64,000 bases of DNA, from assembly GCA_017443465.1 (NCBI GenBank), contig JAFRXO010000009.1, positions 39,035-103,034 on the forward strand. The letters are read 5' to 3'. A program made the translations under genes and the position numbers. This document shows positions 201 through 63,251 of this stretch, one piece after another (position 1 is the first letter of the stretch; each line of letters begins with the position of its first letter). The notes under the pieces are model-generated. The model worked only from the letters and a program-made list of their open reading frames with translations. It was not told where the DNA came from and did no database searches. Origin of the DNA: Bacteroidales bacterium (GTDB lineage: Bacteria; Bacteroidota; Bacteroidia; Bacteroidales; UBA932).

Positions 201-788
201 ATGATTGACTACCTGAAAGGCAAAATCGAAGAAATAAACCCGACCGGACTGGTTCTGGAAAACAACGGAATAGGATATGGGATCCTTATTTCGCTCCAGA
301 CATATGAAAGCCTTAAAGACAAGAGCGAGGCGAAGGTGTACATCCACTATCAGGTCCGCGAAGACGACAGGGAATTCTACGGGTTCGCCACAAAAGACGA
401 GAGGGAACTCTTCCAACTTCTCATAGGAGTCAACAGCGTCGGCGTAGCTACGGCAAGGATGATGCTTTCATCGATGTCTTCCGAAGAAGTGCGTACGGCT
501 ATTCTCTCTGAGGACCTTGCAAAGATCAAGAGTGTAAAAGGAGTAGGACTGAAGACCGCACAGAAAATAATAATCGAGCTGAAAGACAAGATAGTAAAGG
601 GCGAAGGATCATCATTGGAAACCCTTCCAGGAATGGGAAGGAACGAAAATGTAGAAGAAGCTACAAGGGCCCTTATTATGCTCGGATTCTCTAAGCCGGT
701 CGTTTCGAAGGCTATTCAGAAAGTGCTTAAAGATAATAATGCCGGCACAGTTGAAGAACTGATAAAAGCAGCTCTAAAACTGGTCTAA
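201..788 (+). CDS. ruvA: Holliday junction branch migration protein RuvA
   Basis: 195 residues, the usual RuvA length. An N-terminal OB-fold (about 1-62) starts MIDYLKGKIEEI, followed by the double helix-hairpin-helix region with LLIGVNSVGVATA and VKGVGLKTAQKIIIELKDK, then a flexible linker and a C-terminal three-helix domain (about 147-195) that contacts RuvB. RuvA tetramers clamp the Holliday junction and load RuvB hexamers. The partner ruvB lies about 7 kb away on the opposite strand, so the two are not an operon as they are in enterobacteria. The stop codon is immediately followed by a parS palindrome. Confidence 0.97.
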   Translation: MIDYLKGKIEEINPTGLVLENNGIGYGILISLQTYESLKDKSEAKVYIHYQVREDDREFYGFATKDERELFQLLIGVNSVGVATARMMLSSMSSEEVRTAILSEDLAKIKSVKGVGLKTAQKIIIELKDKIVKGEGSSLETLPGMGRNENVEEATRALIMLGFSKPVVSKAIQKVLKDNNAGTVEELIKAALKLV

Positions 789-804
789 TGTTCCACGTGG
801 AACA
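789..804. other. parS site 1 (ParB-binding palindrome)
   Basis: A perfect 16-bp palindrome TGTTCCACGTGGAACA fills almost all of the 19-bp gap between the ruvA and mnmG stop codons. It matches the widely conserved ParB/Spo0J binding site (consensus TGTTNCACGTGNAACA). An identical copy lies 295 bp away inside mnmG. Confidence 0.88.
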
Positions 805-807
805 ATC

Positions 808-2676
808 TTATCTTCCAAAATAAACGAGAAGTACGGAAATATCTGAAGGAGAAACTCCAGATATCCTGGAAGCTTGGGCTATGGTCCGAGGCTGATACCT
901 CTTGAATTTCTGCCTGCATTCGATGGTAAGTCCGGAAATCTTATCGAAATCAAAGTATTCAGGAATCACAATATTTTCAAGTCTGACCATCTTTTCGGCT
1001 AAAGATTCCTCGCGGAGGATATAGCCGGCATATTTTGATGAAATCTCCACAGACTCTATTTCCTCTTCAGAATACTCATTATTTGTTCCACGTGGAACAA
1101 AATTCAGCAATTGATCCAAATGTACTTCCGGACGGGAAACTAGATCAGAAAGTTTCTTGGATTCTGTCACGGGAGCAGACGAAACAGATGAAAGATACGG
1201 ATTTACAGCCTCGGGACGAATACTCGTAGTTGATATAAAATCCTTAAGAGAAGCCACTCTATCGTTTTTTTTCATAGTGGCATCATATCTCTCATCCGAT
1301 ATCAGTCCAATCTTATGAGAAAGAGGAGTAAGGCGGAAATCAGCATTATCCTGACGAAGAAGAATCCTATGTTCAGCCCTGGAAGTAAACATCCTATAGG
1401 GCTCATCAACACCTTTCGAAATAATATCATCGATCAAGACACCGATATACGCCTGGTCCCTGCGAAGGATGAACGGCTCCTCTCCCCTGCATTTCAGATG
1501 CGCATTTATACCAGCAACAAGACCTTGTGCAGCGGCCTCTTCGTAACCTGTAGTACCATTGATCTGTCCTGCAAGGAAAAGATTATCAATCGCTTTCAGC
1601 TCAAGAGTATGTTTCAGCTGTGACGGATCGAAATAATCATACTCAACAGCATATGCAGGCTTGAAAATCCTGGCATTTTCGAATCCGGGAATATGATGAA
1701 GGGCTTTCAGCTGAACATCAAGCGGCAAGGAAGAAGAGAATCCCTGGAGATAGTATTCATTTGTGTCCAGCCCCTCAGGCTCAAGGAAAAGCTGGTGCGA
1801 ATCTTTATCAGGGAACACACGGAGCTTATCCTCGATGCTCGGACAATAACGTGGACCTATTCCGCGGATCACACCGGAAAAAAGAGGGGAGTCCGCAAAT
1901 CCGCTTCGAAGGATGTCATGAACCTCAGTATTGGTGTGAGCGATATAGCACGGAATCTGGGGATGTCCGTCCTGGATGTAGGAAGGCACCGAAGAAAAAG
2001 AAAACCTGGAAGGATTCTCATCTCCGGGCTGAAGGGAAAGTTTTGATGTGTCAACCGAAGAAAAATCTATTCTCGGGGGAGTGCCGGTTTTCATCCTGCC
2101 GGATGAGATGCCAAGAGACACCAACTGTTCGGTCAAACCATATGAAGCGCTCTCCCCTATCCTTCCTCCGGTAAACTGATTCCTGCCGATGAAAAGTTTT
2201 CCGTTCAGGAAGGTTCCGACGGTAAGGATAACTGTCTGAGATTTAAAAATTGCCCCTGTAGTACACGAGACCCCCTCAATTTTTGAATTCTCAAAGAGAA
2301 GAGATTGCACAGAATCCGCGTAAATATCTAATTTACAATTAGTTTCGAGAAATTTTCGCCATGTAAGGGAAAATCGGATTTTATCGCATTGTGCACGCGG
2401 ACTCCAGACTGCCGGTCCCTTCGACCTGTTGAGCATCCTGAACTGAAGGGTAGTCGCATCTGTCACCAGTCCGGTGTATCCTCCGAGGGCATCGATCTCC
2501 CGGACGATCTGTCCTTTTGCAATTCCTCCGATCGAGGGGTTACAGGACATCCTGGCAAATCCCCTCATATCCATGGAAACCAGCAGGACAGAAGACCCCA
2601 TGTTTGCGGCTGCCATCGCAGCTTCACAGCCGGCATGACCTCCTCCGACGACTATGACATCATAGAAGGGAAACAT
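808..2676 (-). CDS. mnmG: tRNA uridine-5-carboxymethylaminomethyl(34) synthesis enzyme MnmG
   Basis: 622 residues. MnmG (GidA) with MnmE installs the cmnm5 group on the wobble uridine of certain tRNAs, using FAD and methylene-THF. The N-terminal FAD-binding motif [13 protein letters not shown]-like stretch (about 8-22) is present, as are CNPSIGG (Cys near 46), GRIGE near 172, and the inserted and C-terminal helical domains ending in the MnmE-binding region. The ATG start is embedded in a CATATG hexamer, 4 bp after the ybeY stop, so the two are probably co-transcribed. The second parS copy is translated here as part of FVPRGTNN. Confidence 0.96.
1084..1099. other. parS site 2 (ParB-binding palindrome inside mnmG)
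   Basis: A second exact copy of TGTTCCACGTGGAACA, here within the mnmG coding sequence. Two identical perfect 16-mers within 311 bp cannot reasonably be chance. parS sites within or beside gidA/mnmG near the origin are known in several bacteria. Confidence 0.88.
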
Positions 2677-2680
2677 ATGT

Positions 2681-5190: not shown

Positions 5191-5934
5191 TCAGCCCCTG
5201 AATTCAGCCTTGAGGAACTCTCTGTTGAGACGTGCGATATGATCGACAGAGATGCCTTTGGGGCATTCCATTTCACATGCACGGGTGTTGGTGCAGTTTC
5301 CGAATCCAAGTTCGTCCATCTTGGCCACCATAGCCTTTGCACGGCGCTCTGCCTCCGGACGTCCCTGAGGAAGAAGTGCAAGTGAACTTACGCGTGCACC
5401 TACGAACAGCATTGCAGATCCGTTCTTACATGTAGCGACACAAGCTCCGCATCCGATGCAGGCAGCTGCATCCATACTCTTCTCAGCAGTCTCATGAGGA
5501 ATGAGGATATTGTTGGCATCCTGTGCGGAACCAGTTCTGACAGAAATGAATCCACCAGCCTGAAGAATCTTGTCGAAAGCGGTTCTGTCAACCACAAGAT
5601 CCTTGATTACGGGGAATGCAGCACTTCTCCAGGGCTCTACAGTGATGGTCGCACCATTCTTGAAATGACGCATGAAAAGCTGACATGTAGTCACATGGTC
5701 ATCCGGACCGTGAGCCCTGCCATCTACATACAGGGAACATGCACCGCAAATACCTTCCCTGCAGTCGTGATCGAAAGCGACAGGATCACCACCCTCACGA
5801 ATGAGCTTCTCATTGAGAATATCCAGCATCTCAAGGAATGAAGCATCCGACTCTATGTCAGTTACATCATAAGTTTCAAAATGTCCCTGAGCCTTAGCGT
5901 TCTTCTGACGCCATATCTTTACCTTGAAATCCAT
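5191..5934 (-). CDS. sdhB: Succinate dehydrogenase/fumarate reductase iron-sulfur subunit
   Basis: 247 residues. It carries the three cluster-binding regions of the SdhB/FrdB family: [16 protein letters not shown] with a later Cys for [2Fe-2S] (about 57-85), [16 protein letters not shown] for [4Fe-4S], and [15 protein letters not shown] for the [3Fe-4S]/[4Fe-4S] pair. It relays electrons between the flavoprotein SdhA and quinones in a membrane-anchored complex. It is encoded 4 bp after sdhA and clearly co-transcribed. Its ATG sits in a CATATG hexamer. In anaerobic Bacteroidales this complex mainly works as fumarate reductase; that direction is inference. Confidence 0.95.
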
Positions 5935-5938
5935 ATGA

Positions 5939-9268: not shown

Positions 9269-12200
9269 ATGTTGATAAACGGAAAACAGACAGGAATACT
9301 GAAGAAACTTATCCAGGAGGAAGGAAGCGTTTACTGCAGCGGCCTTTTCCTGTCTGCCCGTTGGTTCGTCCTTTCGCAGATTGCAGAGAGTGGGATGCAT
9401 ATGGTAGTCCTCCCTAATAAGGATGCGGCCGAATATTGTGCAGGAGATCTTTACAACATAGTAGAAGGAGATAATGTTTTCTTCCTTCCGGACAGCGGAA
9501 AGAACGTAGAAAGAAGTAATTACAAATCTTCTCTCGGAGTACAGAGAACATCGGCGGTTGGAAGGATCCTCGAAGGCGACAAAGAAAAACTTACTATCAT
9601 AGTAACTTATCCGGATGCGCTTAAAGAAGAAATTCCGGACACTTCTTCACTTGAAAAAGGAATCATAAGCATATCCAAGGATGAGGAGTTCGGTTATGAT
9701 AAGCTTAAAGAAAGACTGTCTGAAATAGGGTTCGAGAAAACAGATTTCGTCGCAGCTCCTGGACAGTACGCCGTAAGAGGTTCACTGATAGATGTTTTCT
9801 CATATACTTTCAATAATCCTTACAGAATATCTTTCTTCGGTGATGAGGTAGAAAAGATCCATGTATTCAATTGCGACACCCAGCAGTCTGAATTTGAGGT
9901 AGAAAAGGTTAAGATATCTCCGGATGTAACATCTGGAGGGGAAGGAAGGAATACAAGTATATGTGACATTATAAGGAAGGACACAGTCATATGGCTCGAT
10001 TCTTCAGATATGTACAGGAATGAGCCGTTTTTCAGTTCTCTTCTGGAATTTAAGAATGTGTTCTTAGACGTACCGCTTTCAGCGGGTGATGTCAATCCGG
10101 TCCGTTTCAATATAAGTCCCCAGCCGGTTTTCAACAAGAACTTCGAGCTGTTGTCCGCGGACATAACTGAAAAGAGCGAAAGGGGATATAAAGTTTATAT
10201 ATACGGCGAGAAAAAAAGCCAGCTGGAAAGGGTTAAGTCTATACTTACCCAGAACGGAGGTATCATTCCGGAATTCGTCGAGGGAAAAAACATCCACAGC
10301 GGTTTTATTGACGGTGAGCAGAAAGTATGTCACTATACCGACCACGAAATCTTCGACAGGTTCCACAGGGTTAGCATCCGCCGTACCGTAGACAAGACTG
10401 AACAACTCACACTCAATGACTTAAGTGCTTTCAATATTGGAGATTATGTAGTCCATATAGACCATGGTGTCGGTATCTTCGGCGGACTCGTGAAGATGAG
10501 GGACGATAAGGGAAGGGTGAGGGAAGTCATAAAGATCAGTTACAAAGACGGGGATGTGGTGTTCGTGTCTGTACATTCCCTCAACAAGATATCCCGCTTC
10601 CGTTCCAAGGACGGAGAAGTTCCGAAAATCCACAAACTCGGATCCAAGACCTGGCAGAACCTCAAGACCAGTGCCAAATCCAAGGTAAAGGACATAGCTA
10701 AAGACCTGATCCAGCTGTATGCAAAGAGAAAAGCGGAAAAAGGATTCGCTTTTTCTCATGATACCTATCTTCAGGAGGAATTGGAATCATCCTTCATGTA
10801 TGAAGATACTCCCGATCAGGAGCTTGCTACCGATGCCGTAAAGAAGGATATGGAGGACAGCTGCCCCATGGACAGGCTCATATGCGGAGATGTGGGTTTC
10901 GGAAAGACAGAAATCGCAATCAGGGCCGCATTCAAGGCATGTACGGACAATAAACAGGTTGTGGTGCTGGTTCCTACTACAATTCTTGCGCTTCAGCATT
11001 ACAACACATTCTGCAGCCGTCTCAATGGTTTTCCTGTCAATATTGAATATCTCAGCCGCCTGCGCACGGCTAAGCAGGAAAGAAAGATAAGGGAAGACCT
11101 TAAGAACGGCCTGATAGACATCATAATAAGCACGCATAAGATACTTGGGAAGGGTTGGAAATTCAAGGATCTCGGTCTGCTTATAATCGACGAGGAACAG
11201 AAATTCGGAGTCGCCGCAAAGGAAAAGCTCAGACAGTTTAAGGAAAATATTGACACTCTTACACTTACAGCTACTCCTATTCCCAGGACCCTTCAGTTTT
11301 CGCTTCTAGGGGCCAGGGATCTGAGCATAATAGCCACTCCCCCGCCCAACAGGATTCCCATCCAGACCGAGATAATCCTTTTCGACGAGAAAGAGATAAA
11401 GGAAATAATCAATTATGAGCTTAACCGCGGCGGACAGGTGTATTTCCTCCATAATAAGGTAGAGGAACTTCAATCTATATATGAAATCTTGAAAAGGCAG
11501 GTTCCGGATATGCGCATATGTATTGCGCATGGCCAGATGGAGGCCCGTGAACTCGAAGACAGGATCCTGTCGTTCATCCGCGGAGACTATGATATGCTCC
11601 TGTGTACCACTATCATAGAAAACGGGTTGGATATTCCGAACGTAAATACGATAATCATCAACCAGGCCCAGAACATCGGACTGAGCGACCTGCACCAGCT
11701 CCGCGGCAGGGTGGGACGTTCCAACAGGAAGGCTTTCTGCTATCTGATTGTACCTCCGCTGATTACCATAACAGAAGATGCCAGACGGCGCCTTAAGGCC
11801 ATTGAGGAGTTCTCAGACCTTGGAAGCGGTTTCAACATCGCAATGCAGGACCTTGACATCAGGGGAGCCGGGAACCTTCTCGGAGCGGAACAGAGCGGTT
11901 TCATAGCGGACATGGGTTATGAAACATATGAGAAGATCCTTTCCGAGGCAATGGAAGAACTCGGGGTGGAAACCGGACTCCAGCCACGCGGAATGCGCTC
12001 GGTATATGTTGAGGATTGCACTATAGAGACTGACCAGCAAGCCCTTATTCCTGACGGGTACATAGACGTAACCGCTGAAAAGATAAGGATATACAAGCAG
12101 CTGGATTCCATGCGCGGGGAGAAGGAGATAAACAGGTTCGCGGCACAGCTTGCAGACCGCTTCGGTCCCCTGCCGCAGGAAGTTTCCAACCTCTTCGACG

Positions 12201-12457
12201 TGGTGAAAATTAGGAATCTCGGGGTTTCGCTCGGGTTCGAGAAGATAATAGTGAAGAACGGTATGATGATAATGTTCTTCATATCCAATCCCATGTCTCC
12301 GTACTATCAGTCCGAAGTTTTCTCAGGAGTTCTCAGGAGGGTAAGCGAGAACCAGCCGTTATTTGCCGTAAAGCAGGTGGAAAACCGGCTTAAGATAGTC
12401 CTGCGCGGGATTGATTCCCTCGGAAAAGCCCTCTCGTCTTTGAGAAAGTTGCAATAA
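9269..12457 (+). CDS. mfd: Transcription-repair coupling factor Mfd
   Basis: 1062 residues, slightly shorter than the E. coli protein. Mfd removes stalled RNA polymerase at lesions and recruits UvrA. A UvrB-like N-terminal region is followed by the RNA-polymerase-interaction CarD-like domain (about 385-470, GDYVVHIDHGVGIFGG). The helicase/translocase motor has Walker A GDVGFGKTE (about 539), a DEEQ box (about 640, IIDEEQKFGV), TATPIPRTLQ, and RGRVGRSNRKAFCY. The C-terminal TRCF domain is present. Its last codons contain the -33 element for the next gene. Confidence 0.97.
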   Translation: MLINGKQTGILKKLIQEEGSVYCSGLFLSARWFVLSQIAESGMHMVVLPNKDAAEYCAGDLYNIVEGDNVFFLPDSGKNVERSNYKSSLGVQRTSAVGRILEGDKEKLTIIVTYPDALKEEIPDTSSLEKGIISISKDEEFGYDKLKERLSEIGFEKTDFVAAPGQYAVRGSLIDVFSYTFNNPYRISFFGDEVEKIHVFNCDTQQSEFEVEKVKISPDVTSGGEGRNTSICDIIRKDTVIWLDSSDMYRNEPFFSSLLEFKNVFLDVPLSAGDVNPVRFNISPQPVFNKNFELLSADITEKSERGYKVYIYGEKKSQLERVKSILTQNGGIIPEFVEGKNIHSGFIDGEQKVCHYTDHEIFDRFHRVSIRRTVDKTEQLTLNDLSAFNIGDYVVHIDHGVGIFGGLVKMRDDKGRVREVIKISYKDGDVVFVSVHSLNKISRFRSKDGEVPKIHKLGSKTWQNLKTSAKSKVKDIAKDLIQLYAKRKAEKGFAFSHDTYLQEELESSFMYEDTPDQELATDAVKKDMEDSCPMDRLICGDVGFGKTEIAIRAAFKACTDNKQVVVLVPTTILALQHYNTFCSRLNGFPVNIEYLSRLRTAKQERKIREDLKNGLIDIIISTHKILGKGWKFKDLGLLIIDEEQKFGVAAKEKLRQFKENIDTLTLTATPIPRTLQFSLLGARDLSIIATPPPNRIPIQTEIILFDEKEIKEIINYELNRGGQVYFLHNKVEELQSIYEILKRQVPDMRICIAHGQMEARELEDRILSFIRGDYDMLLCTTIIENGLDIPNVNTIIINQAQNIGLSDLHQLRGRVGRSNRKAFCYLIVPPLITITEDARRRLKAIEEFSDLGSGFNIAMQDLDIRGAGNLLGAEQSGFIADMGYETYEKILSEAMEELGVETGLQPRGMRSVYVEDCTIETDQQALIPDGYIDVTAEKIRIYKQLDSMRGEKEINRFAAQLADRFGPLPQEVSNLFDVVKIRNLGVSLGFEKIIVKNGMMIMFFISNPMSPYYQSEVFSGVLRRVSENQPLFAVKQVENRLKIVLRGIDSLGKALSSLRKLQ

Positions 12458-12469
12458 TCAGTATATTTG
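12439..12469 (+). promoter_or_regulatory. Full -33/-7 promoter of the coaX - OM protein - TPR - lptC run
   Basis: TTTG (12439-12442) inside the end of mfd, a 19-bp spacer, then TATATTTG (12462-12469). The leader to the GTG start is about 15-19 nt. Confidence 0.8.
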
Positions 12470-12488
12470 CGGGATTTGTGTTCAGAAA

Positions 12489-13265
12489 GTGGCCAATCTG
12501 CTGATAGAAATAGGCAACACCGCCCTTAAAGCGTCATGGTCCGAGGGAATGACTCTCGGAAAGACTTTCCGCTACCAGGGGGAGAAGGTGATTGATTTCA
12601 TACTTTCGCTTACGGCGAAGGAAAAGGCGGAGGTGATGGCCGTAGCCAGCGCATATGATTTGTCTTTATCCGACATCGAAAAGATGAAAGGCGAGTGCTC
12701 CAGACTTATAGTACTGGATAGCGCCCACAAGGAAATACTTCTCTCACAAGGTTTTCCGGATTGGCTTTCATATGACAGGGCCGCCCTGGTGATGGCGGCC
12801 AGATGGCTTTTCAAAGGACGTGGGTGCTCGGTTTTCGACTTGGGTACTACTCTGACGGTTGACTTTACTGATGCAACAGGAAAATATCTCGGAGGCAACA
12901 TTTCCCTTGGATTCAGAACCAGGTTCAAGGCCCTGAACCGCTACTCTAAAGCCCTTCCGCTGGTGGATACCCCGCTTGAAAATTATCCATCCGTGGAGTA
13001 TTCCAAATCCCTGAACGAAGCCCCTCTGGATTCATTCACAGGTACTTCTGTCGAGTCTTCTATCGAAGCAGGGGTTATTTCGGGCATAATGTTTGAATTA
13101 GAGGGCTACGCGTCTTTCCATCCGGAGAACATATGCATTTTCACCGGGGGAGACGCCGTTTATTTTGCAAAAAGAATGAAAAACTCCATCTTTGTGGTAA
13201 ACAATCTCGTATTGATGGGGTTGGCTTTAATCGCCAATGGCTATAATGAAGAAGGGATTATTTAG
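12489..13265 (+). CDS. coaX: Type III pantothenate kinase
   Basis: 258 residues with a GTG start, chosen because the next codons read straight into the family's phosphate-binding motif (ANLLIEIGNTALKASW) and no upstream in-frame ATG exists. It catalyses ATP-dependent phosphorylation of pantothenate, the first step of coenzyme A synthesis. The ASKHA-fold motifs are visible: IEIGNT near residue 6, FDLGTTLTVDF near 117 and FTGGDA near 219. The 3' end overlaps the next gene by about 20 nt. In Bacteroidota coaX commonly heads this envelope-gene run. Confidence 0.93.
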   Translation: MANLLIEIGNTALKASWSEGMTLGKTFRYQGEKVIDFILSLTAKEKAEVMAVASAYDLSLSDIEKMKGECSRLIVLDSAHKEILLSQGFPDWLSYDRAALVMAARWLFKGRGCSVFDLGTTLTVDFTDATGKYLGGNISLGFRTRFKALNRYSKALPLVDTPLENYPSVEYSKSLNEAPLDSFTGTSVESSIEAGVISGIMFELEGYASFHPENICIFTGGDAVYFAKRMKNSIFVVNNLVLMGLALIANGYNEEGII

Positions 13266-14574
13266 TACAGCTGTCGTTTTCCTGCTCCTGGCCGGTTTCA
13301 TGCCGCTGGGTGCCCAGAACACCATAACCGGGGCAAACGGGGATTATACTCCCTACTCGGTGTTCGGGGTCGGCACCCTTTCAAAACAGGGAAACACACA
13401 CAACAAAGGCCGTGGAGGAGTTGGTATAGCCACACGCAACCGCCGTTACATCAATTACTTGAATCCTGCATCGGTAACAGCGAGGGACTCCCTGTCATTC
13501 ATGGCCGATTTCAGCCTTGCAGGAACTAACAGGCTGTTCAACCAAGGGAACATGAAAGATGTCCACAACACAGTGAACGTGTACGATTTCATGATATCAT
13601 TCCCGATCTACAGGAAATCCGCAATGATGATTGGGATAACCCCCATGAGCGACGTGGGATACAAGATGAAGTCCTCGTTCACCGATCCCGACCTTATCTC
13701 CACTGCTGGAATGTTCAACTACAACGCCAGCGGCGGCGGAGGTATCTATCAGGCCTTCATCGCAGGCGGTGTAACCCTTTGGGACCGCCTTTCCATAGGT
13801 GCGCAGGGCATTTACTATTTCGGAAACCTGCGCAGGGACAACGCCCTGGAGCCGAGCAAGACGGACCAGAAGGAAATCACCATCAAATATGACATGACAT
13901 TGCGCGGAATTACCGGAAAATTCGGTCTCCAGTACGACCTTCCGCTCAATGACAGGACATATCTTACTTTCGGAGCCACCTACAGGCTCGGGACGAAGAT
14001 GCGTGGATATGTGGACCACAGGCAGTTCGCAAGCATATCATCCGTGGTCGATACCATCCAGTTCCGTACAGATACCCTTACAAAGATGTCTGCCAAGCCA
14101 CGTTTTGCGGATGAAATGGGCTTCGGAATAGCCATACGCAGCGGTGAAAGGTGGTCTGCCGAGATTAATTACATCCGCGCCGGCTGGGCCGGGACCAACA
14201 TTGACAAGGTTCCCGGAATGGCCAACCAGAGCGAGGCCCGTTTTTCCCTGACTTCTTCAGAGTCCATCAGGGCTGGCTTTGAGATTGTTCCCAACAGGAA
14301 TGATGTCCGCTACTATCTCCGCAAGTGTACATATATGGCCGGAGCCTACTATGACAAGGAGTATTACAAGATTGCCGGACAGCAAGTTACATCAATGGGA
14401 CTGACCTTCGGGATGACCTTCCCGATCCTTCGGTTCTATAACGGTATAACTTTTGGAGTAGACGTCGGACAACGCGGAAAAAACGATGGCAACATGATCC
14501 GCGAGAGATATGTGAATTTCATAGTCGGATTCAATATTTCGGACATATGGTTCCAGAAACCAAGATATAATTAA
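13246..14574 (+). CDS. Predicted outer-membrane beta-barrel protein
   Basis: 442 residues from ATG 13246, which begins an excellent signal peptide (Lys-Lys, then a hydrophobic core, then GAQ at the cleavage site); an ATG 9 nt upstream is also in frame. Mature protein: many short amphipathic segments alternating with turns, aromatic residues at strand ends, FIVGF/IWF-like C-terminal strands. This fits an outer-membrane barrel of the FadL/OmpP1-like type, but I recognise no named family member. It overlaps coaX and precedes a TPR protein and lptC, so a role in outer-membrane assembly or lipid transport is inferred from context only. Confidence 0.75.
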   Translation: MKKGLFSTAVVFLLLAGFMPLGAQNTITGANGDYTPYSVFGVGTLSKQGNTHNKGRGGVGIATRNRRYINYLNPASVTARDSLSFMADFSLAGTNRLFNQGNMKDVHNTVNVYDFMISFPIYRKSAMMIGITPMSDVGYKMKSSFTDPDLISTAGMFNYNASGGGGIYQAFIAGGVTLWDRLSIGAQGIYYFGNLRRDNALEPSKTDQKEITIKYDMTLRGITGKFGLQYDLPLNDRTYLTFGATYRLGTKMRGYVDHRQFASISSVVDTIQFRTDTLTKMSAKPRFADEMGFGIAIRSGERWSAEINYIRAGWAGTNIDKVPGMANQSEARFSLTSSESIRAGFEIVPNRNDVRYYLRKCTYMAGAYYDKEYYKIAGQQVTSMGLTFGMTFPILRFYNGITFGVDVGQRGKNDGNMIRERYVNFIVGFNISDIWFQKPRYN

Positions 14575-14599
14575 AGCAAGACTAACAAACTCAAGAGCA

Positions 14600-15922
14600 A
14601 TGAAAAAAATAAACTACATGATTTTGACCGTATTGATGGTCTTCAGCAGCAGCAACCTCTTCGCTCAGGGAAGGTTCGGTGCTGATAGCGCTAACTGTGT
14701 GAAGTATCTGTCCTATTATCAGGAATACTATAAGCAGAAAAACTACAATGACGCGCTTCCCAACTGGAGGAAAGCCATGCAGCTCTGCCCGCCTACGGCC
14801 AGCCAGAACATGCTCCTCAACGGACAGACTCTTTTCCGCCGTTTGATATCACAGAGCAAGAGTGCAGATGAAAGGAAAGTCCTCATAGACTCCCTTTTCC
14901 TGCTCAACGACCTCAGGGCCGCGAATTATCCCAAATACTCCGTTGCAGCTCTCAACAACAAGGGAGTTGACATGACGAACTACATCAAGGATGACACCCA
15001 GAGGCTTTACTCTTCCCTTAATGAGATCATTGAGGCGAACAAAGAGGAGACGAAGCCCAGCCTCCTTCTCTTCGACATGAATGCAGCTATCACGCTTTTC
15101 CAGGACGGAAAGATCGATGCCGGCGAGGTTATCAACACCTATGACAGGAATATGGCACTGCTCGACAAAGCTCCCACCGATAAGCCGGAGGATGCCGAGG
15201 AAGTCGGTAAGATGAGGGCCTCCATCGAGGATCTCTTCATCTCCAGCAAGGTAGCCAGCTGCGAGAACCTCATTGCTCTCTTCACCCCGCGTTTCAATGC
15301 CAATCCGAACGACCTCGACCTCGTTACCAACATCGCCAAGATGCTCAACACCGCCGAGGGCTGCACCGACAACGAACTCTACCTGAACGCTGTCAACACG
15401 ATGTACAAGCTCAATCCTTCAGGAACTTCCGCATATTACCTTTACAGGCTCTATGATGCCAGGAACAACCGCGAAGAAGCTACCAAGTACCTCGAGGCCG
15501 CAATCGCTTCCGACGACATCGATCCCAAGAACAGGGCACAGTACGAGTATGAGCTCGCAGTCCTGAGCGTAAAGGCCGGAAACAATGCCAAGGCATATGC
15601 TTCTGCACAGAAAGCCCTGGAGATGGATGAATCCCTTGCCGGAAAGTGCTACATGATCATGGGTAACATCTGGGGTTCGGTTGTCTGCGGTGGCAATGAA
15701 ATCGAGAAGAGGGCTCATTTCTGGGTCGCTGTCGATTACATGCAGAAAGCCAAGGCTGCAGACGCATCGCTCACAAGCGAGGCCAACAAGTACATCTCCT
15801 CATATGCGGTTTATTATCCGCAGACCGCCGACGCCTTCATGTATGACGTGACCGACGGACAGTCCTACACTGTCTCCTGCGGCGGAATGAGGGCTACAAC
15901 TACAGTGCGTACGCAGAAATAA
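14600..15922 (+). CDS. Secreted TPR-repeat protein
   Basis: 440 residues with a signal peptide (about 1-22, ending FAQG). The body is helical, with tetratricopeptide-like repeats: an N-terminal pair around YYQEYYKQKNYNDALPNWRKA and several C-terminal repeats around residues 270-350 (NREEATKYLEAAI, AKAYASAQKALEMD). TPRs mediate protein-protein contacts, here in the periplasm. Its stop overlaps the lptC start by one base (TAATG), a sign of translational coupling. Exact partner unknown. Confidence 0.8.
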   Translation: MKKINYMILTVLMVFSSSNLFAQGRFGADSANCVKYLSYYQEYYKQKNYNDALPNWRKAMQLCPPTASQNMLLNGQTLFRRLISQSKSADERKVLIDSLFLLNDLRAANYPKYSVAALNNKGVDMTNYIKDDTQRLYSSLNEIIEANKEETKPSLLLFDMNAAITLFQDGKIDAGEVINTYDRNMALLDKAPTDKPEDAEEVGKMRASIEDLFISSKVASCENLIALFTPRFNANPNDLDLVTNIAKMLNTAEGCTDNELYLNAVNTMYKLNPSGTSAYYLYRLYDARNNREEATKYLEAAIASDDIDPKNRAQYEYELAVLSVKAGNNAKAYASAQKALEMDESLAGKCYMIMGNIWGSVVCGGNEIEKRAHFWVAVDYMQKAKAADASLTSEANKYISSYAVYYPQTADAFMYDVTDGQSYTVSCGGMRATTTVRTQK

Positions 15923-16557
15923 TGCATTCCCGCAGCACTTCAGGATTATTAAAGATGATGGCAACCGCTTCGGCGGTTGCTTTCATTGTCTTTTCCTGCA
16001 AGGGAAAACTTTCGGAAGCGGAGGATATGGACATAAGCCAGGCTCCGGTCCAGGCCGTGGACAGCATATTCATGACCCAGTCGGACAAGGGTATCCTCCA
16101 GATGAGGGCGGTGGCCCCCAGGATGGAGAGGTACGACAACGACACCGCCTCTTTCGAGAAGTTCCCTTACGGGCTTGAAGTGTATGGTTATACTGAAGAG
16201 GGACTGCTTGAAACCCAGATACTTTCGGATGAGGCCCTGCATTTCAAGAGCAAGAAGGACAAGTCCGAATTCTGGAGGGCATATGGCAATGTGGTAGTGC
16301 AGAATATTATCAAGCAGCAGACCATGGAGACGGACACCCTTTATTGGGACCAGGAGAAAAAGGAGATATGGACGGAATGTTATGTTAAGATGTATTCTCC
16401 GGACGGTTTCATGCAGGGTTTCGGGATGCGTTCGGACGAAAGGGCGCGCAATTCCACGATACTCCGTCCTTTCAACAGTTTCGGGGTGCTGGTGCAGGAT
16501 TCGACCCGGGTTGTGATCGATTCTGTCAACTTTATAGGGCCTTTGCTTAAAAATTGA
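15922..16557 (+). CDS. lptC: LPS export protein LptC family lipoprotein
   Basis: 211 residues. The N-terminus is a lipoprotein signal with a VFSC lipobox (Cys near 26). The rest fits the LptC/OstA-like beta-jellyroll of Bacteroidota: repeated short strands with LETQILSDEALHF, EFWRAYGNVVVQN, METDTLYWDQEKKEIWTE. LptC bridges the LptBFG inner-membrane transporter and LptA in lipopolysaccharide transport. The start codon overlaps the stop of the TPR gene. The lipid anchor in place of a membrane helix is normal for this phylum. Confidence 0.85.
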   Translation: MHSRSTSGLLKMMATASAVAFIVFSCKGKLSEAEDMDISQAPVQAVDSIFMTQSDKGILQMRAVAPRMERYDNDTASFEKFPYGLEVYGYTEEGLLETQILSDEALHFKSKKDKSEFWRAYGNVVVQNIIKQQTMETDTLYWDQEKKEIWTECYVKMYSPDGFMQGFGMRSDERARNSTILRPFNSFGVLVQDSTRVVIDSVNFIGPLLKN

Positions 16558-16621
16558 AGAAAAATCATTAACTTCGCACCCCAAAATATTTTTTTGATTA
16601 CAAAACAATTAAAGTCATAAT

Positions 16622-18712
16622 ATGGCGGTACTAGAAACACTCCGAACCAAGTTCGGCATGGCAGTAACCATCCTGGTGGCCCTCGGCCTCCTGTCCTTTA
16701 TTATTGATCCAAGCAGCCTCGAGACGGCATATCATGCTATGTCGTCAAAATATGATGTAGGCGAGATCGACGGTAAATCCATTTCCTACAATGATTTCCA
16801 GGCGGAAATGGACCACTACAAGGACATCAGCCAGTTGCTCTCAGGATCTTCTGCAGAGAGTTCGCAGCAGCAGGCACAGATCCGCAACATGGCATGGCAG
16901 AGCCTGCTTGACAGGCATCTTTTCATCAAGAATGCAAAAGAGGCGGGAATAAATGTCGGAACAGACGAGATGGTGGCCCTCACCTCCGGAGACCTCATTT
17001 CTCCGGTCATCGCCCAGGATCCGGTATTTGCTGACGAAACGGGTAATTTCTCTAAAGACAGGCTTCTCCAGTTTGTCCAGGGCACTTCTTCCGATTCCGG
17101 CGCCAAGATGTACTGGGATTATATCCAGAACAACATCTACACCCAGCAGTTCTATGCCAAATATGGCAGCCTGTTCAGCGACAGCAATTTCAAGAGCCCC
17201 CTGATGCGCAGGAGGTTGATCGAGGAGAACAACAACACTGTCGATATCGACTTCGTGATGGTTCCGATGAATCCCTATGAGCAGGATACTACCGTAACCG
17301 TATCTTCCGAGGAAATCAAGGCCTTCTACAATGCGCATAAGGATTTCTTCAAGCAGCAGGAGAGCCGCGATATCGAGTATGTTGTCTTCGAGGTCAAGCC
17401 GTCAGAGGCTGACATCCAGGCTACTTCGGACAACTTCAACAAACTCTATGAGGAGTTCGGAACCACCGACAATGTGAAGTCTTTCCTCGCAAAGAATTCA
17501 GACAGGGTCCTTTCCAACTACTGGTACAAGGCAGGAGAACTCGCTACAATCAACTCAGACATCAATAATTACGTCTTTGACAAGCCCGAGGGCGTTTCCC
17601 CGGTCTTCAGGAGCGGAAATACCTTCTATGCCGTCAAGGTCATGGATACCGCCCTCCTTCCCGACTCTGTGTATGTCAAGCATATCCTCCTTCAGGGAGA
17701 CGGTGCTGACAAGAGGGCTGACAGCCTCGTTACCGTTCTCGGAAAGGGTGGAGATTTCGCTGCGCTGGCCAATCTCTATTCAGTTGACAAGAGCTCTTCC
17801 GCAGACGGAGAGATGGGTAATATCGGCTGGATGACCCAGAGCTACATAATTCCAGGATTCGAGGACATTTTCTCCCGCAAGCCGGGCGTTCCCTTCACCC
17901 TGAAGACCCAGTACGGATGGCATGTAGTCGAGGTTTCGAAGATTACAGCACCCGTTCAGAAGAAGCAGGTTGCCATTTTCGAGAAGGCTACCGTCTCCAG
18001 CAAGGAGACCTTCAACTCCTTCTATTCGACCGCAAACGATTTCGCGACCAGGGCTTCTGCAGGTTATGACGCCTACAAGGCCGCTGCCGACTCCATGCAC
18101 GTCTACTCCCATCCGCTGAACAACGTCCTCGAGACCAATGAGTCATATGGCTCCATCTCAGACGCCAGGGAACTGACCCGCTGGATTTTCGACAACAAGA
18201 AGGGTAAGGTTTCCGGAATCATCACCGTGAACAACAATTACTTCTTCGTCACAACCATCAAGGACATCCACAAGGAAGGCCTGGCTACCGTTGCCGAGGC
18301 TGCTCCGCAGATCCGCCAGCAGCTCCATGCCGAGAAATCTGCAGTCAAGAAGGCAGAAGAAGTTGCAGCCAAGATTTCCGGCCTGACCGACCTCCAGAGC
18401 ATTGCCGAGGCCCTTGGTACCACAGTGAATTCCCAGAGCGGCATTACCTTCGCATCTCTGATGTCACAGGGCCTCGATCCGAAGCTCATCGGCGCAGTTT
18501 CCGTAGCTCCTGTCGGCGAGATCAGCAAGCCTGTCGCAGGATCGATCGCTACATATGTCTATCAGGTGAAATCACGCGACACCGGCTCCTTCTTCACGGA
18601 GGATGATGCCAAGGCTTACGATGACAGGATGAACAACTATCTGCAGCAGATGATACTTCCCGTCATGTCACAGGAAGCCCAGGTTGTCGATCACAGGGCT
18701 AAGTTCTATTAA
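16622..18712 (+). CDS. PpiD/SurA-type peptidyl-prolyl isomerase, membrane anchored
   Basis: 696 residues. One N-terminal membrane helix (about 12-30) is followed by a SurA_N-like chaperone domain starting VGEIDGKSISYNDFQ, a parvulin domain near residues 340-440 (VYVKHILLQGDGA, ADGEMGNIGWM, PGFEDIFSRKPGVPFTLKTQYGWHVVEV), and a second, degenerate C-terminal region. PpiD-like foldases sit at the periplasmic face of the inner membrane and help newly exported outer-membrane proteins fold. Downstream of lptC by 64 bp, as in other Bacteroidales. Confidence 0.9.
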   Translation: MAVLETLRTKFGMAVTILVALGLLSFIIDPSSLETAYHAMSSKYDVGEIDGKSISYNDFQAEMDHYKDISQLLSGSSAESSQQQAQIRNMAWQSLLDRHLFIKNAKEAGINVGTDEMVALTSGDLISPVIAQDPVFADETGNFSKDRLLQFVQGTSSDSGAKMYWDYIQNNIYTQQFYAKYGSLFSDSNFKSPLMRRRLIEENNNTVDIDFVMVPMNPYEQDTTVTVSSEEIKAFYNAHKDFFKQQESRDIEYVVFEVKPSEADIQATSDNFNKLYEEFGTTDNVKSFLAKNSDRVLSNYWYKAGELATINSDINNYVFDKPEGVSPVFRSGNTFYAVKVMDTALLPDSVYVKHILLQGDGADKRADSLVTVLGKGGDFAALANLYSVDKSSSADGEMGNIGWMTQSYIIPGFEDIFSRKPGVPFTLKTQYGWHVVEVSKITAPVQKKQVAIFEKATVSSKETFNSFYSTANDFATRASAGYDAYKAAADSMHVYSHPLNNVLETNESYGSISDARELTRWIFDNKKGKVSGIITVNNNYFFVTTIKDIHKEGLATVAEAAPQIRQQLHAEKSAVKKAEEVAAKISGLTDLQSIAEALGTTVNSQSGITFASLMSQGLDPKLIGAVSVAPVGEISKPVAGSIATYVYQVKSRDTGSFFTEDDAKAYDDRMNNYLQQMILPVMSQEAQVVDHRAKFY

Positions 18713-18726
18713 TAGACAGAAAGGAA

Positions 18727-19635: not shown

Positions 19636-19650
19636 GGTTCGGGGTGTCTG

Positions 19651-20754: not shown

Positions 20755-20782
20755 TTCGCAAGAATATTTATGAATCTTAATG

Positions 20783-20790
20783 CAAAGTTA
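20783..20790 (-). promoter_or_regulatory. -7 element of the ychF promoter
   Basis: TAACTTTG on the minus strand (TAnnTTTG), 28 nt upstream of the ychF ATG. Confidence 0.6.
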
Positions 20791-20822
20791 CACATTTTAA
20801 TCCGTGTTCTTCCCTCTATTGA

Positions 20823-20830
20823 TACATTTG
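20823..20830 (+). promoter_or_regulatory. -7 element of the EEP-nuclease promoter, leaderless arrangement
   Basis: TACATTTG (TAnnTTTG) ends only 4 nt before the ATG at 20835, so transcription would begin at or next to the start codon. Confidence 0.5.
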
Positions 20831-20834
20831 TCAT

Positions 20835-21806: not shown

Positions 21807-21833
21807 TTTCATAGAAAATTCTTTTTATATTTG
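21802..21833 (+). promoter_or_regulatory. Full -33/-7 promoter of galK
   Basis: TTTG (21802-21805, overlapping the upstream stop codon), a 20-bp spacer, then TATATTTG (21826-21833). A GTG at 21833 that could extend galK lies inside this element, which decides for the ATG at 21887. The predicted leader contains the palindrome CACACGTGTG (21847-21856), a possible operator. Confidence 0.8.
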
Positions 21834-21886
21834 TGAATGCACGTACCACACGTGTGCTAAAACGGAAACACTTAAAACCAACAGAA

Positions 21887-23038: not shown

Positions 23039-23060
23039 CCAGAAAGACAGGAAGTTAGGT

Positions 23061-23097
23061 AGATTAATCTGATTACAGTTAATTTAACTCCGGTTAA
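23061..23097. promoter_or_regulatory. Cluster of inverted repeats upstream of the SGNH hydrolase
   Basis: AGATTAATCT (23061-23070) is a perfect palindrome. GTTAATTTAAC (23078-23088) and TTAACTCCGGTTAA (23084-23097) are overlapping inverted repeats. No TAnnTTTG is visible in this 77-bp gap. It could be a binding site for a dimeric regulator; I cannot name it. Confidence 0.4.
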
Positions 23098-23115
23098 ACA
23101 AATTTTAGTATCACT

Positions 23116-23820: not shown

Positions 23821-23840
23821 TTAACAAACAGGAATCAGCC

Positions 23841-25067: not shown

Positions 25068-25071
25068 CCTT

Positions 25072-25755: not shown

Positions 25756-25766
25756 ATAAATAATGC

Positions 25767-47487: not shown

Positions 47488-47506
47488 TCATATGGTTTCA
47501 TAGCAT

Positions 47507-48118
47507 ATGGCAAAGCTCATCCATTTGAAATCCTGCATGGAGCCGGGGAGGCTCGAAGCCGGCTGCGATGAAGCCGGACGCGGCCCGCTTGCCGGTCCGG
47601 TATATGCCGCTGCGGTCATCCTCCCCGAAGGTTTCTCCCATCCTCTTCTGAACGATTCGAAGCAGATGAACGAAGCCAACCGGGACAAGCTCAGGGAAAT
47701 AATTGAAAAAGAGGCTGTTGCCTGGGCCGTTGAGGCTGTGTCTCCAGCTGAGATCGACTCCTTGAACATCCTCTGGGCATCGGTGACCGGGATGCAGCGC
47801 GCCGTAAAAGCCCTGAAGGTCCGTCCGGATTTCCTCCTGATCGACGGCAACCGCTTCCGCCCCTTCGACGGATTCGCATATACCACTGTGGTACACGGAG
47901 ATGCTACATATGCATCGATCGCCGCGGCCTCGGTGCTGGCCAAGACGTACCGCGACGAATTCATGCGCAGGATCGCGGCGGAATATCCCCAGTATGGCTG
48001 GGACCACAACTTCGGCTATCCTACCGCAGACCATCTGGAGGCCGTGAAAAAGTATGGGCTCACACCATGGCACAGGTTGTCTTTCCATCCGAAAGCACTT
48101 GAGCCTACATTATTCTGA
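47507..48118 (+). CDS. rnhB: Ribonuclease HII
   Basis: 203 residues. It cleaves RNA in RNA-DNA hybrids and single ribonucleotides in DNA. Active-site acids are visible in GCDEAGRGPLAGPV (Asp/Glu near 20), LLIDGN (Asp near 108) and the HGDATYASIAAASVLAKTYRD segment. The C-terminal YGWDHNFGYPTADHLEA and TPWHRLSFHPK are typical. It precedes the S46 peptidase but each has its own -7 element. Confidence 0.96.
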   Translation: MAKLIHLKSCMEPGRLEAGCDEAGRGPLAGPVYAAAVILPEGFSHPLLNDSKQMNEANRDKLREIIEKEAVAWAVEAVSPAEIDSLNILWASVTGMQRAVKALKVRPDFLLIDGNRFRPFDGFAYTTVVHGDATYASIAAASVLAKTYRDEFMRRIAAEYPQYGWDHNFGYPTADHLEAVKKYGLTPWHRLSFHPKALEPTLF

Positions 48119-60203: not shown

Positions 60204-62141
60204 ATGACCATAAGAAGCGTTCTTGTCTTCACTTTGATGTTGCTGGCCTCATTGCATTCCAATGCATATGTGGAGCGCAATCTGCTGCAGAACTCTGCTA
60301 CGAAGCAGGAAGTGAAGGAATCTTTGGTAATGGACCAGAAATGGGTCAATTATCCCGCTTATTCCGACCGTCAGGGATGGGACAGGTTCCTGGGAGAACT
60401 TAAAAACGAGTATATCAGGATAGGAGAGGAAGACCTCGACTTTGAATGGATACCTATCAAGGCGACCGATTATCTGGAATTCGAGCGTTCCGGAGACCGC
60501 AGGGTCATGGAAGAACCGATGATCGCCAATACGGAAGCAATAGCGCACCTGGTGATGGCGGAGCTGGCTGAAGGGAAGGGCCGTTTCCTTGACCCTATAA
60601 TCAATTGCGTCTTCAGTGCATGTGAGATGACGTCCTGGTCCTGGTCGGCACATGTCGGCCGCCAGAAGACGAAACGCTCTTTGCCTTCATACGATGACCC
60701 TGTCCTGGACCTGCTGTGTGCGGGCATGGGCAACATGCTTTCCTGGACCTATTATTTCCTTAAAGACGAGTTTGCCAAGGTCGATCCCGAGATTTCCCGC
60801 CGCCTTCGTCATACGCTTCAGGTACAGATACTGGACACTTATCTGCATAATGACACGTTCAGCTGGATGGCCCGTGGCGCAAAAGGTTCGGCACAGAACA
60901 ACTGGAATCCATGGTGCAACGGCAACTGCCTGATGTGTTTCATGCTGCTGGAGAATGACAGGGATGTCCTGGCAGATGCGGTTTACGAATCCATGAGGTC
61001 TGTAGACCAGTATATAAACTACGTAAAACCGGATGGTGCCAGTGATGAAGGCACTTTGTACTGGGAACAAGGGTCAGGGAAACTGTTTGACTATCTTGAG
61101 CTTCTGTCTTTGATTACCGGCGGGAAGGTTGATCTTTTAAAAGATCCGTCCGTCAAAGCCAGGGGAGAATATATTTATCATTCATATGCAGGAGACGGAT
61201 GGATTGTCAACTTCGCCGATGCATATGGAAAGAGCAAAGGCAATCCATATCTTGTTTACCGTTTCGGAAAGGCCGTTGGCAGCGAGGGAATGATGCACTA
61301 TGCCGCAGCCATACGCGGTACATTGCCCGCCCCTTCGACATCCCCATATCATTACTTCGCTAATGAACCGGACCTTTATCGGGTGCTCAAATCAATCGAA
61401 ATCAGGGATGAGTTGCTAAAGGCGGATCCCACGCCTTTGAAGGAACCGTTCACCTGGTATCCGCAGACGGAAGTCTGTTTCCTATCCAATGACTATGGAT
61501 TGTTCTTTGCTGGAAAGGGCGGCAACAATAACGAAAGCCACAATCATAATGATGTGGGATCGTTTAACCTGTATGTTGACAAAAGGCCCATCATGATCGA
61601 TGCCGGAGTGGCGACTTACATTCGCCAGACGTTCAGCAGCAATACCCGCTATTCGATGTGGAACAATCAGAGCAGTTACCATAACCTGCCGATGCCCAAC
61701 GGTTCCGTTCAAAAGAGCGGAAACCAGTACAAGAGTTCAGATGCCATGGCGAAACCGGGCTTTTTCTCCGTGAACATCGCCGGGGCATATCCCGAAGAGG
61801 CAAAGGTGGAGAAATGGACCCGCTCATATCAGATGAACGGGGCGGAACTCCGTGTCACTGATGCATTTGCCTTGAAAGAGGCTATCGCACCGAACGTAGT
61901 CAACTTCATGACCTGGGGCGATGTCCGGAAAGTGTCGGACGGAAAGATATCCATCACCGTGGATGGAGTGAAGACCCAGTTGACTTATGATCCCAAGGTG
62001 TTCGACTACAGTATCGAGACCATACCGCTGGATGACGTCCGCCTGACCCAGGTGTGGGGAGACAAGATCTATCGCATGTCGTTCACGGCAAAGAAACTTT
62101 CAAAGACAGGAAAGTACGCTTTTACGATCAGGAAACAATAA
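60204..62141 (+). CDS. Heparinase II/III-like polysaccharide lyase
   Basis: 645 residues from ATG 60204, with a signal peptide (about 1-23); a longer in-frame form starting at 60123 runs inside yraN and lacks a signal. An N-terminal alpha/alpha toroid (about 60-370, GSAQNNWNPWCNGNCL) and a C-terminal beta-sandwich Heparinase II/III domain (about 400-640) with the family motif ESHNHNDVGSFNLYVD. It probably cleaves uronic-acid polysaccharides in the periplasm. The CATATG start, the 28-bp gap from yraN and the lack of a promoter suggest read-through from the upstream operon. Confidence 0.87.
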   Translation: MTIRSVLVFTLMLLASLHSNAYVERNLLQNSATKQEVKESLVMDQKWVNYPAYSDRQGWDRFLGELKNEYIRIGEEDLDFEWIPIKATDYLEFERSGDRRVMEEPMIANTEAIAHLVMAELAEGKGRFLDPIINCVFSACEMTSWSWSAHVGRQKTKRSLPSYDDPVLDLLCAGMGNMLSWTYYFLKDEFAKVDPEISRRLRHTLQVQILDTYLHNDTFSWMARGAKGSAQNNWNPWCNGNCLMCFMLLENDRDVLADAVYESMRSVDQYINYVKPDGASDEGTLYWEQGSGKLFDYLELLSLITGGKVDLLKDPSVKARGEYIYHSYAGDGWIVNFADAYGKSKGNPYLVYRFGKAVGSEGMMHYAAAIRGTLPAPSTSPYHYFANEPDLYRVLKSIEIRDELLKADPTPLKEPFTWYPQTEVCFLSNDYGLFFAGKGGNNNESHNHNDVGSFNLYVDKRPIMIDAGVATYIRQTFSSNTRYSMWNNQSSYHNLPMPNGSVQKSGNQYKSSDAMAKPGFFSVNIAGAYPEEAKVEKWTRSYQMNGAELRVTDAFALKEAIAPNVVNFMTWGDVRKVSDGKISITVDGVKTQLTYDPKVFDYSIETIPLDDVRLTQVWGDKIYRMSFTAKKLSKTGKYAFTIRKQ

Positions 62142-62156
62142 TGAATCCATAAACAT

Positions 62157-63251
62157 ATGAATAATAACAGCTATTGCGTGATATTGGCCGGAGGCGGGGG
62201 CGCCTCGCTTTGGCCCCTGGGGCGGGAAGATTGTCCGAAACAGTTCATCAACATCCCATGGCGCGGGATGACATTCCTGCAGAGGACATATGAACGCTTC
62301 AAGGCTGTCATACCGACCGAAAACATCATAGTAGTCACTTTGAGAAAATATGCGGACAAGGTGCGCGAGCAGCTTCCCGGCCTCGGGTCGGAGAACCTCC
62401 TTCTGGAGCCTTACAGCCGCAAGACCGCGCCCTGCGTGGCATATGCATCATATTCCATCCTCAAGCGGAATCCGGACGCCGTGATGGTGGTGACCCCGTG
62501 CGACCACATAATCTCTTCGGACGCGCAGTTCAAGGAAACCATGGAGAAAGTCCTGGCATATGCATATGAAAATGATAACCTGGTGTGCATCGGTGCGCGC
62601 CCGGAAAGGCCGTCTGCGGAATTCGGTTACATACAGGCAAGGGGCGGCCGCAAGGCGCTTCAGGAAGGTAAGCCGGTACCTGTCAAGACATTCCTCGAGA
62701 AGCCAGGGACTGAACTCGCCGAGAAATTCATCAAGAGCGGGGAATTCGTGTGGAACACCGGTATCTTCGTGACGAAGGCTTCGGTGGTCAGGGCCGAGAT
62801 GGAGAGGTACATTCCGGAGATCACTTCGCTTTTCAAGGGCTGGGAGAACTCCCTCGGAGGGCCGGAAGAAGAGGTCTTCCTCGAAAGGGTTTACACTGAA
62901 TGCTCCAATCAGTCAATAGATTACGGTGTAATGGAGAAGACTGAGAGGGCTGTGGTCTATCCTGCCAGCTTCAGCTGGAGCGACATTTCTTCCTGGAGTT
63001 CGCTTTACAATGCGTCTCCTGTGAAGGACGGCTCCGGGAACATAGTCTATTTTGACGGGAAGATCACTCAGGATTGCCGGGACAACCTGATCTATTCCAA
63101 GGGCAGCGGGCGCATGATAGCCGTGAAGGGGCTGAAGAATTTCGTGGTGGTTGACACCGAAGATGCCTTGCTGATCTGCCCGCGGGACGGGGAAGCATTT
63201 GACGATCTGCTCTCTGACCTGGCCATGCCGGATTTCAAAAAATACCGGTAG
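62157..63251 (+). CDS. manC: Mannose-1-phosphate guanylyltransferase
   Basis: 364 residues. The nucleotidyltransferase signature VILAGGGGASLWPLGREDCPKQF is at the N-terminus, with MVVTPCDHII near 103 and FLEKPGTELAEKFIKSGEFVWNTGIFV near 180. It converts mannose-1-phosphate and GTP to GDP-mannose for surface polysaccharides. The bifunctional cupin isomerase domain is absent, so it is monofunctional. Its ATG is in CATATG, 16 bp after the lyase. Some family members accept other hexose phosphates. Confidence 0.92.
   Translation: MNNNSYCVILAGGGGASLWPLGREDCPKQFINIPWRGMTFLQRTYERFKAVIPTENIIVVTLRKYADKVREQLPGLGSENLLLEPYSRKTAPCVAYASYSILKRNPDAVMVVTPCDHIISSDAQFKETMEKVLAYAYENDNLVCIGARPERPSAEFGYIQARGGRKALQEGKPVPVKTFLEKPGTELAEKFIKSGEFVWNTGIFVTKASVVRAEMERYIPEITSLFKGWENSLGGPEEEVFLERVYTECSNQSIDYGVMEKTERAVVYPASFSWSDISSWSSLYNASPVKDGSGNIVYFDGKITQDCRDNLIYSKGSGRMIAVKGLKNFVVVDTEDALLICPRDGEAFDDLLSDLAMPDFKKYR

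Follow-up and report, generated by a model that had tools for sequence, protein, structure and literature searches.

CATATG in the 64-kb window

We analysed a 64-kb stretch of a Bacteroidales genome (the window; bases 39035-103034 of contig 47 in a 2.65-Mb, 81-contig assembly) for the palindromic hexamer CATATG. An exact search located 108 copies spanning 301..62568, with first bases at 301, 1650, 2139, 2674, 4172, 4361, 5932, 6999, 7366, 9398, 9988, 10879, 11515, 11925, 12652, 12769, 13130, 14544, 15594, 15801, 16280, 18144, 18552, 19308, 20132, 20582, 20832, 20879, 21087, 21127, 21181, 21321, 22281, 23660, 23972, 24416, 25656, 26703, 28115, 28430, 28706, 29168, 29639, 29747, 30377, 30551, 31127, 31383, 31688, 32621, 32872, 33115, 33385, 34671, 35360, 35636, 36604, 36676, 37288, 37593, 38392, 38550, 40319, 40828, 41008, 41433, 41686, 42175, 43009, 43315, 43560, 43686, 43785, 44415, 44989, 46823, 46880, 47489, 47504, 47907, 48210, 49581, 49620, 49734, 49848, 50855, 51239, 52792, 54122, 54181, 54579, 54600, 55103, 55609, 56089, 56466, 57335, 58043, 60169, 60201, 60265, 61183, 61222, 62154, 62287, 62440, 62557 and 62563. 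An earlier reading of the same DNA from its letters (the sequence-only reading) had estimated about 100, and every coordinate it named holds a copy.

The expected number is 14.4 from base composition, 12.6 from dinucleotides and 28.1 from trinucleotides; a maximal-order Markov model gives 84.7, a circular figure because its 5-mers contain the motif. The enrichment is real and stronger than had been supposed. Other palindromic hexamers lie far below CATATG, with 53 copies of TCCGGA and 21 of GATATC, the latter already judged not to be enriched. The copies use all three codon phases, again as read by eye: 10 are in CAT-ATG, 62 in nCA-TAT-G and 26 in nnC-ATA-TG, while six span start codons and four lie elsewhere.

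The six start codons, taken as the starts of longest open reading frames (ORFs), are on the minus strand at 2674..2679 (ORF 808-2676, mnmG according to the sequence-only reading), 5932..5937 (ORF 5191-5934) and 34671..34676 (ORF 33615-34673), and on the plus strand at 20832..20837 (ORF 20835-21806), 47504..47509 (ORF 47507-48118) and 62154..62159 (ORF 62157-63251). At least eight such starts had been proposed, and the remainder may depend on start choice. A tandem pair, CATATGCATATG, occupies 62557..62568. The rpsL end (62569-64000) indeed has no copy, but this is weakly informative, as it offers one plus-strand permissive hexamer by the two simple patterns checked.

Genome-wide excess and comparison with relatives

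The enrichment extends beyond the window. The whole genome (2.65 Mb) holds 4230 copies, or 1600 per Mb, compared with 79 of the reversed word GTATAC. Our sample of this genome comprised 141 stretches, including the window, that total 2.03 Mb (77% of the genome) and contain 3219 copies before any division. Nineteen stretches masked throughout were dropped; 98 (1.77 Mb) with at least 0.9 CATATG per kb were designated core, and 24 (0.22 Mb) fell below. This division uses the outcome itself, so core figures are somewhat favourable. Genes were called as longest ORFs of at least 100 codons. The baseline consisted of 80 congeneric loci of up to 23 kb each from the neighbourhood of mfd, a limited gene set. 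Named relatives, identified by their Mfd protein, are assemblies of Bacteroidales; many come from rumen or gut, and several bear the name Candidatus Cryptobacteroides.

In core coding sequence, CATATG ranks first of 4096 hexamers against a within-gene synonymous-codon shuffle (z = 85), the kind of background count that the sequence-only reading had proposed. It also ranks first by ratio (4.37) among hexamers with at least 60 expected copies. Core genes contain 2803 copies against 642 expected, whereas relatives contain 145 against 214. Across the 1356 core genes, the three phases hold 415, 1615 and 773 copies, compared with 259, 226 and 170 under a shuffle that keeps protein and codon usage. 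Codon-pair or composition bias is rejected on the strength of these synonymous-codon shuffles and of the use of three phases.

Among 399 other genomes of the genus that were searched, a single one, G789, equals this density, with 3353 copies in about 2.1 Mb (1.6 per kb). The third in the genus, G579, has 2028 copies in about 2.8 Mb. Its Mfd is 68% identical to that of our genome, so close descent does not account for its moderate excess, and G579 is possibly an independent, milder case. That genome also has 41 copies of GTATAC and DNA-methyltransferase matches (one to PF00145, three to PF02384). In a search of 392 other genomes of the order, the next highest CATATG densities were about 0.43 per kb. 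The 80 congeneric loci carry 0-12 copies each, above the dinucleotide expectation in 11 and by at most 1.5-fold, while window pieces of equal size carry 33-45.

No palindrome of comparable excess was found in the 80 loci. The strongest, at about 5-fold and weaker than CATATG in the window pieces, were CTGCAG (27 against 5.3 in L116, 25 against 5.6 in L185) and ATATAT (27 against 5.4 in L137), each in about 23 kb. Other departures from the codon shuffle were also observed. GTATAC stands at 0.14 of expectation in our genome and 0.45 in relatives, and its copy number in 393 genomes of the order varies between 1 and 2235. TCCGGA is mildly over-represented (1.64 in core stretches, 1.68 in relatives), and GCTAGC, CCTAGG, TCTAGA and ACTAGT are depleted in core stretches and relatives alike. 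A literature search covering titles and abstract openings returned no report of CATATG over-representation in Bacteroidota.

Saturation of permissive sites

CATATG is present at 78-95% of the places where synonymous codon choice permits it. In the 1356 core genes, it occupies 415 of 439 His-Met, 1615 of 2075 NCN-TAY-G and 753 of 836 NNC-ATH-TG sites. The corresponding counts are 33/78, 78/1010 and 34/216 in the 80 relative loci, and 13/23, 27/167 and 14/51 in the low-density stretches. The pattern also reaches gene starts and intergenic DNA. Among core genes, 183 of 982 have CAT directly before the ATG start; the proportion is 2 of 121 for genes on low-density stretches and 7 of 735 among relatives. 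Intergenic sequence (3 bp of gene included on each side) contains 208 copies where 24.5 are expected, compared with 16 and 21.7 in relatives.

Occupancy is 0.79-0.86 in every tenth of gene length. Translational selection was considered and rejected: across fifths of codon bias in the 1200 genes that had enough codons, occupancy is 0.76, 0.84, 0.88, 0.85 and 0.82, with no fall and with the lowest value in the least biased genes.

The word appears to have altered proteins as well. His-Met pairs number 448 against 285 expected and Met-His pairs 282 against 285; in relatives the counts are 80 and 179 against 214. This amino-acid shift is clear for His-Met, small for the Tyr class and not clear for Ile-Cys/Trp. 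Conservation of the encoded residues at CATATG sites is below that of the same residues elsewhere: 0.64 against 0.77 for His, 0.06 against 0.68 for Met, 0.72 against 0.81 for Tyr and 0.58 against 0.73 for Ile. Some sites therefore probably arose with an amino-acid change. The comparison drew on 109 relative loci, 17 of our genes with orthologues, 620 pairs and 32 sites; the pairs are non-independent and the sites few.

Six-base specificity

We compared CATATG with eight synonymous one-base neighbours that cover transitions and transversions, the three codon phases and motif positions 1-5. Relative to the congeneric baseline, the odds ratios in its favour were 44.9, 37.5, 56.3, 46.8, 23.0, 46.8 and 51.0, and for an outer C in place of T the value was 43.3. 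The two contexts used as controls gave 3.5 and 1.1. Strong values for all substitution types make a single mutational bias an unlikely source.

The preference requires the rest of the word. The TAT:TAC odds ratio, 46.8 in CATAYG, is 1.0 in AATAYG, 1.5 in GATAYG and 1.6 in TATAYG, and with A, C or T in the last position it is 3.6, 1.9 and 3.5, respectively. All six bases therefore matter, and the flanks have little clear effect: after normalisation to relatives, 10 of 12 flank classes lie at 25-48, and the other two, at 156 and 182, are based on 5 and 7 relative counts. A longer recognition word, GCATATGC, was rejected, as the raw flank effect is mostly gone after this normalisation. Avoidance of near misses, as opposed to attraction to the word, is not supported, because intergenic near misses are about as frequent as in relatives. 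Together, the synonymous occupancy, the odds ratios and the six-base specificity strongly support the earlier suggestion of a DNA-level signal over codon-pair bias.

Independence of sites and sparse regions

For sites more than 1.5 kb from a stretch end, phase-1 occupancy is 0.77-0.81 in each distance class up to 800 bp, measured to the nearest other CATATG (n=1681, Spearman -0.03, p=0.23). There is no diminishing return even within 20 bp of another site, where 77 of 99, 18 of 19 and 29 of 33 permissive places are filled. A spacing or density function was rejected, since distance has no effect within 800 bp. Gaps between sites in core stretches are close to exponential (coefficient of variation 1.06), 20 of 3061 gaps separating pairs 6 bases apart. 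In 73 core stretches of 20 kb, the mean count is 36.2 and the variance 32.9.

Density is bimodal across the genome. The 24 sparse stretches are mostly small contigs with 0-0.6 copies per kb, compared with a typical 1.8 elsewhere, and include C18, C22, C53, C58, C59, C72, C73, C74, C77 and C79. These low-density contigs may be bin contamination or recently acquired DNA, and CATATG density could help to clean the bin. Second copies of three C53 proteins were sought in the analysed sequence, and none was found at E <1e-30.

Rich contigs contain CATATG-poor regions too (L231, L237:1-10881, L060:1-7915 and L208:7916-11218), which are possibly recent acquisitions. Proteins sampled from such regions include TonB/SusD, GH2, heparinase-like, FtsX-type transporter and elongation factor G (EF-G) proteins. 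In sparse regions, several genes with at least four permissive sites are unfilled, so the filling process looks slow.

Conservation in a related genome

Of the 112 other congeners whose Mfd was compared, G789 comes nearest to our genome, at 94% identity; the others reach at most 75% in long matches and 77% in one partial match. It is probably the sister species, judged from the congeners that this comparison covered, a minority of the 399 searched.

Across 26.3 kb aligned at 84.8% identity (window positions 9407..31500 plus 4.2 kb of our contig 51), 36 of our 46 CATATG sites and 36 of the 42 in G789 are common to both genomes. Background conservation is much lower, at 38% for all hexamers, 37% for other palindromes (n=336) and 39% for composition-matched hexamers (335/854; Fisher p=1.7e-7 for CATATG against the last). 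Permissive sites in G789 are occupied at 4/4, 36/42 and 17/22 in six of seven loci, one overlapping locus having been excluded. The CATATG state is thus common to these two closely related gut bacteria and conserved in G789, and the responsible process is most likely older than the split and has persisted since.

Search for the agent

The sequence-only reading had listed a methyltransferase target among its suggestions, and our searches do not support it. We found no match above cut-off to PF01555, PF02086, PF07669, PF00145 or PF02384 in our genome (96% complete), and none in G789 (79% complete) to PF00145 or PF02384, the two families searched there. The same searches did recover these families in the genus: PF00145 in G008, both in G579 and PF02384 in G596, with neither in G483. 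In the sampled 77% of the genome, a motif-IV-like tetrapeptide occurs in 33 ORFs and a PCQ-like motif in 18. No DNA methyltransferase emerged above cut-off when these 51 candidates were compared with Pfam, and 38 of them match no Pfam entry. Our genome is in 81 contigs and that of G789 in about 270, so at their respective completeness a methyltransferase could sit in missing DNA.

Two sub-cutoff matches to Eco57I (PF07669) were rejected as DNA methyltransferases. One is PrmC-like with a PrmC N-terminal domain; the other is a small methyltransferase, presumably of the YfiC/TrmN6 type. Core genes were also scanned with regular expressions for further nuclease or modification genes, and three proteins were examined further. 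A simple 20-mer repeat test detected no clustered regularly interspaced short palindromic repeat (CRISPR) arrays in the unmasked analysed sequence.

A separate element came to light at C29:66729-67361 (L222 6729-7361). There, a tRNA-Leu-like gene, recognised by our own reading and not called by ARAGORN, is apparently split by a group I intron bearing an HNH homing-endonuclease-like ORF; the intron matches Rfam RF00028 at 46.8 bits, slightly short of the gathering score of 50.

Proposed mechanism

CATATG is a lineage-specific highly iterated palindrome, spread across the core stretches. We infer that some factor recognises the full six-base palindrome in DNA and favours it over near misses site by site. 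As a tentative explanation, which we currently favour, the sites would be filled by a molecular drive, a biased form of repair or conversion formally akin to biased gene conversion. When a near miss mutates to CATATG, or CATATG itself mutates, the mismatch would be resolved toward CATATG. Over time most permitted places would be filled, and newly acquired DNA would not yet be.

A methyltransferase of the five Pfam families searched does not seem to be the agent. With greater reserve, we propose that the drive is independent of methylation, an enzyme that reads the exact palindrome converting near misses genome-wide, overriding synonymous codons and adding pairs such as His-Met. We prefer drive over additive selection or undetected methylation because there is no diminishing return at very short distance and the specificity resembles that of a restriction enzyme. 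Since both strands carry the identical word, a signal acting through RNA where the DNA is transcribed may also be conceivable.

Very-short-patch (Vsr) repair offers a partial precedent: it is sequence-specific and drives a genome toward one word, and it acts on T:G mismatches only. Unlike Vsr, the CATATG preference is strong for transitions and transversions both; no search for the Vsr family (PF03852) was made.

Several observations weigh against drive. The odds fit a constant per-site bias, from selection or directed repair alike, and such equilibrium odds cannot separate drive from equally local selection. The intergenic excess, 8.5-fold over expectation and about 11-fold relative to relatives, is below the roughly 40-fold preference at synonymous sites; constraint, or an equilibrium not yet reached, may account for the gap. 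At more than 800 bp from another site, phase-1 occupancy drops to 42/85 and then 14/32; we tentatively attribute this drop to recently acquired DNA, because sampled sparse regions carry TonB/SusD and FtsX-type transporter genes. Choosing core stretches by a density of at least 0.9 per kb also trims the variance of the 20-kb counts, and the baseline relatives are confined to the gene set around mfd. Finally, the responsible enzyme is a postulated one, and we know of no repair enzyme able to act on every kind of mismatch inside a single hexamer.

Alternative explanations

Weak selection for sites bound by a chromosomal protein, whether of the nucleoid, of recombination or of repair, each site bringing a small independent gain (scaled strength about ln 40 = 3.7), is a possible though rather doubtful source of the pattern. 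High odds ratios for all substitution types are what constant per-site selection predicts, and the conservation in G789 and the excess both in and outside genes fit it as well. However, we regard the lack of diminishing return even below 20 bp and the near all-or-none 6-bp specificity as unusual for chromosome-organising proteins. The nucleoid-protein site suggested earlier, or a site of another DNA-binding protein, may still be right, but the specificity looks more like that of a restriction-type or repair-type enzyme.

An orphan methyltransferase, of another family or in unsequenced DNA, coupled to methylation-directed repair or a methylation-dependent function, seems unlikely. A strict 6-bp palindrome is typical of methyltransferases and counts in its favour. 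Such a system would resemble the highly iterated palindromes (HIPs) of cyanobacteria, namely HIP1 (GCGATCGC) and alternate HIPs. Passages of Elhai 2015 (PMC4390886) put these at about 500-2500 copies per Mb and describe them as generally accompanying cognate methyltransferases, some HIP1-rich genomes being without a CGATCG methyltransferase. As in the HIPs described there, one short palindrome is hugely over-represented genome-wide (1600 per Mb here), with different words in different lineages. The CATATG host, however, belongs to Bacteroidales and not to cyanobacteria, and its word is AT-centred without internal GC, whereas HIP1 is GC-rich. No cognate methyltransferase was found for CATATG among the five Pfam families, although the same searches find such enzymes in congeners, and the 51 motif-bearing ORFs gave no DNA methyltransferase match above cut-off. 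The GmeC repair model for HIP1, as outlined in passages of the same paper (PMC4390886), depends on a cognate methylase and predicts that accumulation levels off at about one site per kb. In contrast with that outline, CATATG occupancy is independent of neighbours from 800 bp down to less than 20 bp, with no saturation near one per kb.

A restriction-modification system is a further comparison. NdeI-type systems recognise CATATG, and restriction sites are usually avoided, not accumulated. Here the word is accumulated, and the five-family search revealed no methyltransferase.

Biased uptake of CATATG-bearing fragments followed by recombination is very improbable. DNA uptake sequences of Neisseriaceae and Pasteurellaceae occur in many copies per genome, by drive or selection, and the copy number of CATATG per Mb is of the same order. 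Those sequences are longer words, whereas CATATG is a 6-bp palindrome without distance effect. A bias acting on fragments predicts a lower gain near an existing site, and none is seen; a 6-bp word would also be too common in foreign DNA to mark self. The uptake-like sequence suggested by the sequence-only reading is thus not supported, occupancy being no lower near another site; no search for competence genes was made.

Ordinary codon, codon-pair or composition bias, or an assembly artefact, can be dismissed almost entirely: the maximal-order Markov expectation that would favour it is circular, and it is contradicted by the codon-preserving shuffle, the three phases, the intergenic excess and the 3353 copies in the separate genome of G789.

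Significance

To our knowledge, why some genomes accumulate one palindrome has been an open question since HIP1. CATATG is an apparently independent case in another phylum, near saturation at synonymous sites and without a detected methyltransferase, an absence that makes a methylation-based explanation directly testable. G789 shares the state and hundreds of congeners do not, which offers a clean comparison for tracing the agent. In these genomes a DNA word overrides synonymous codon choice at thousands of sites, and the pattern points to a process that reads the exact word.

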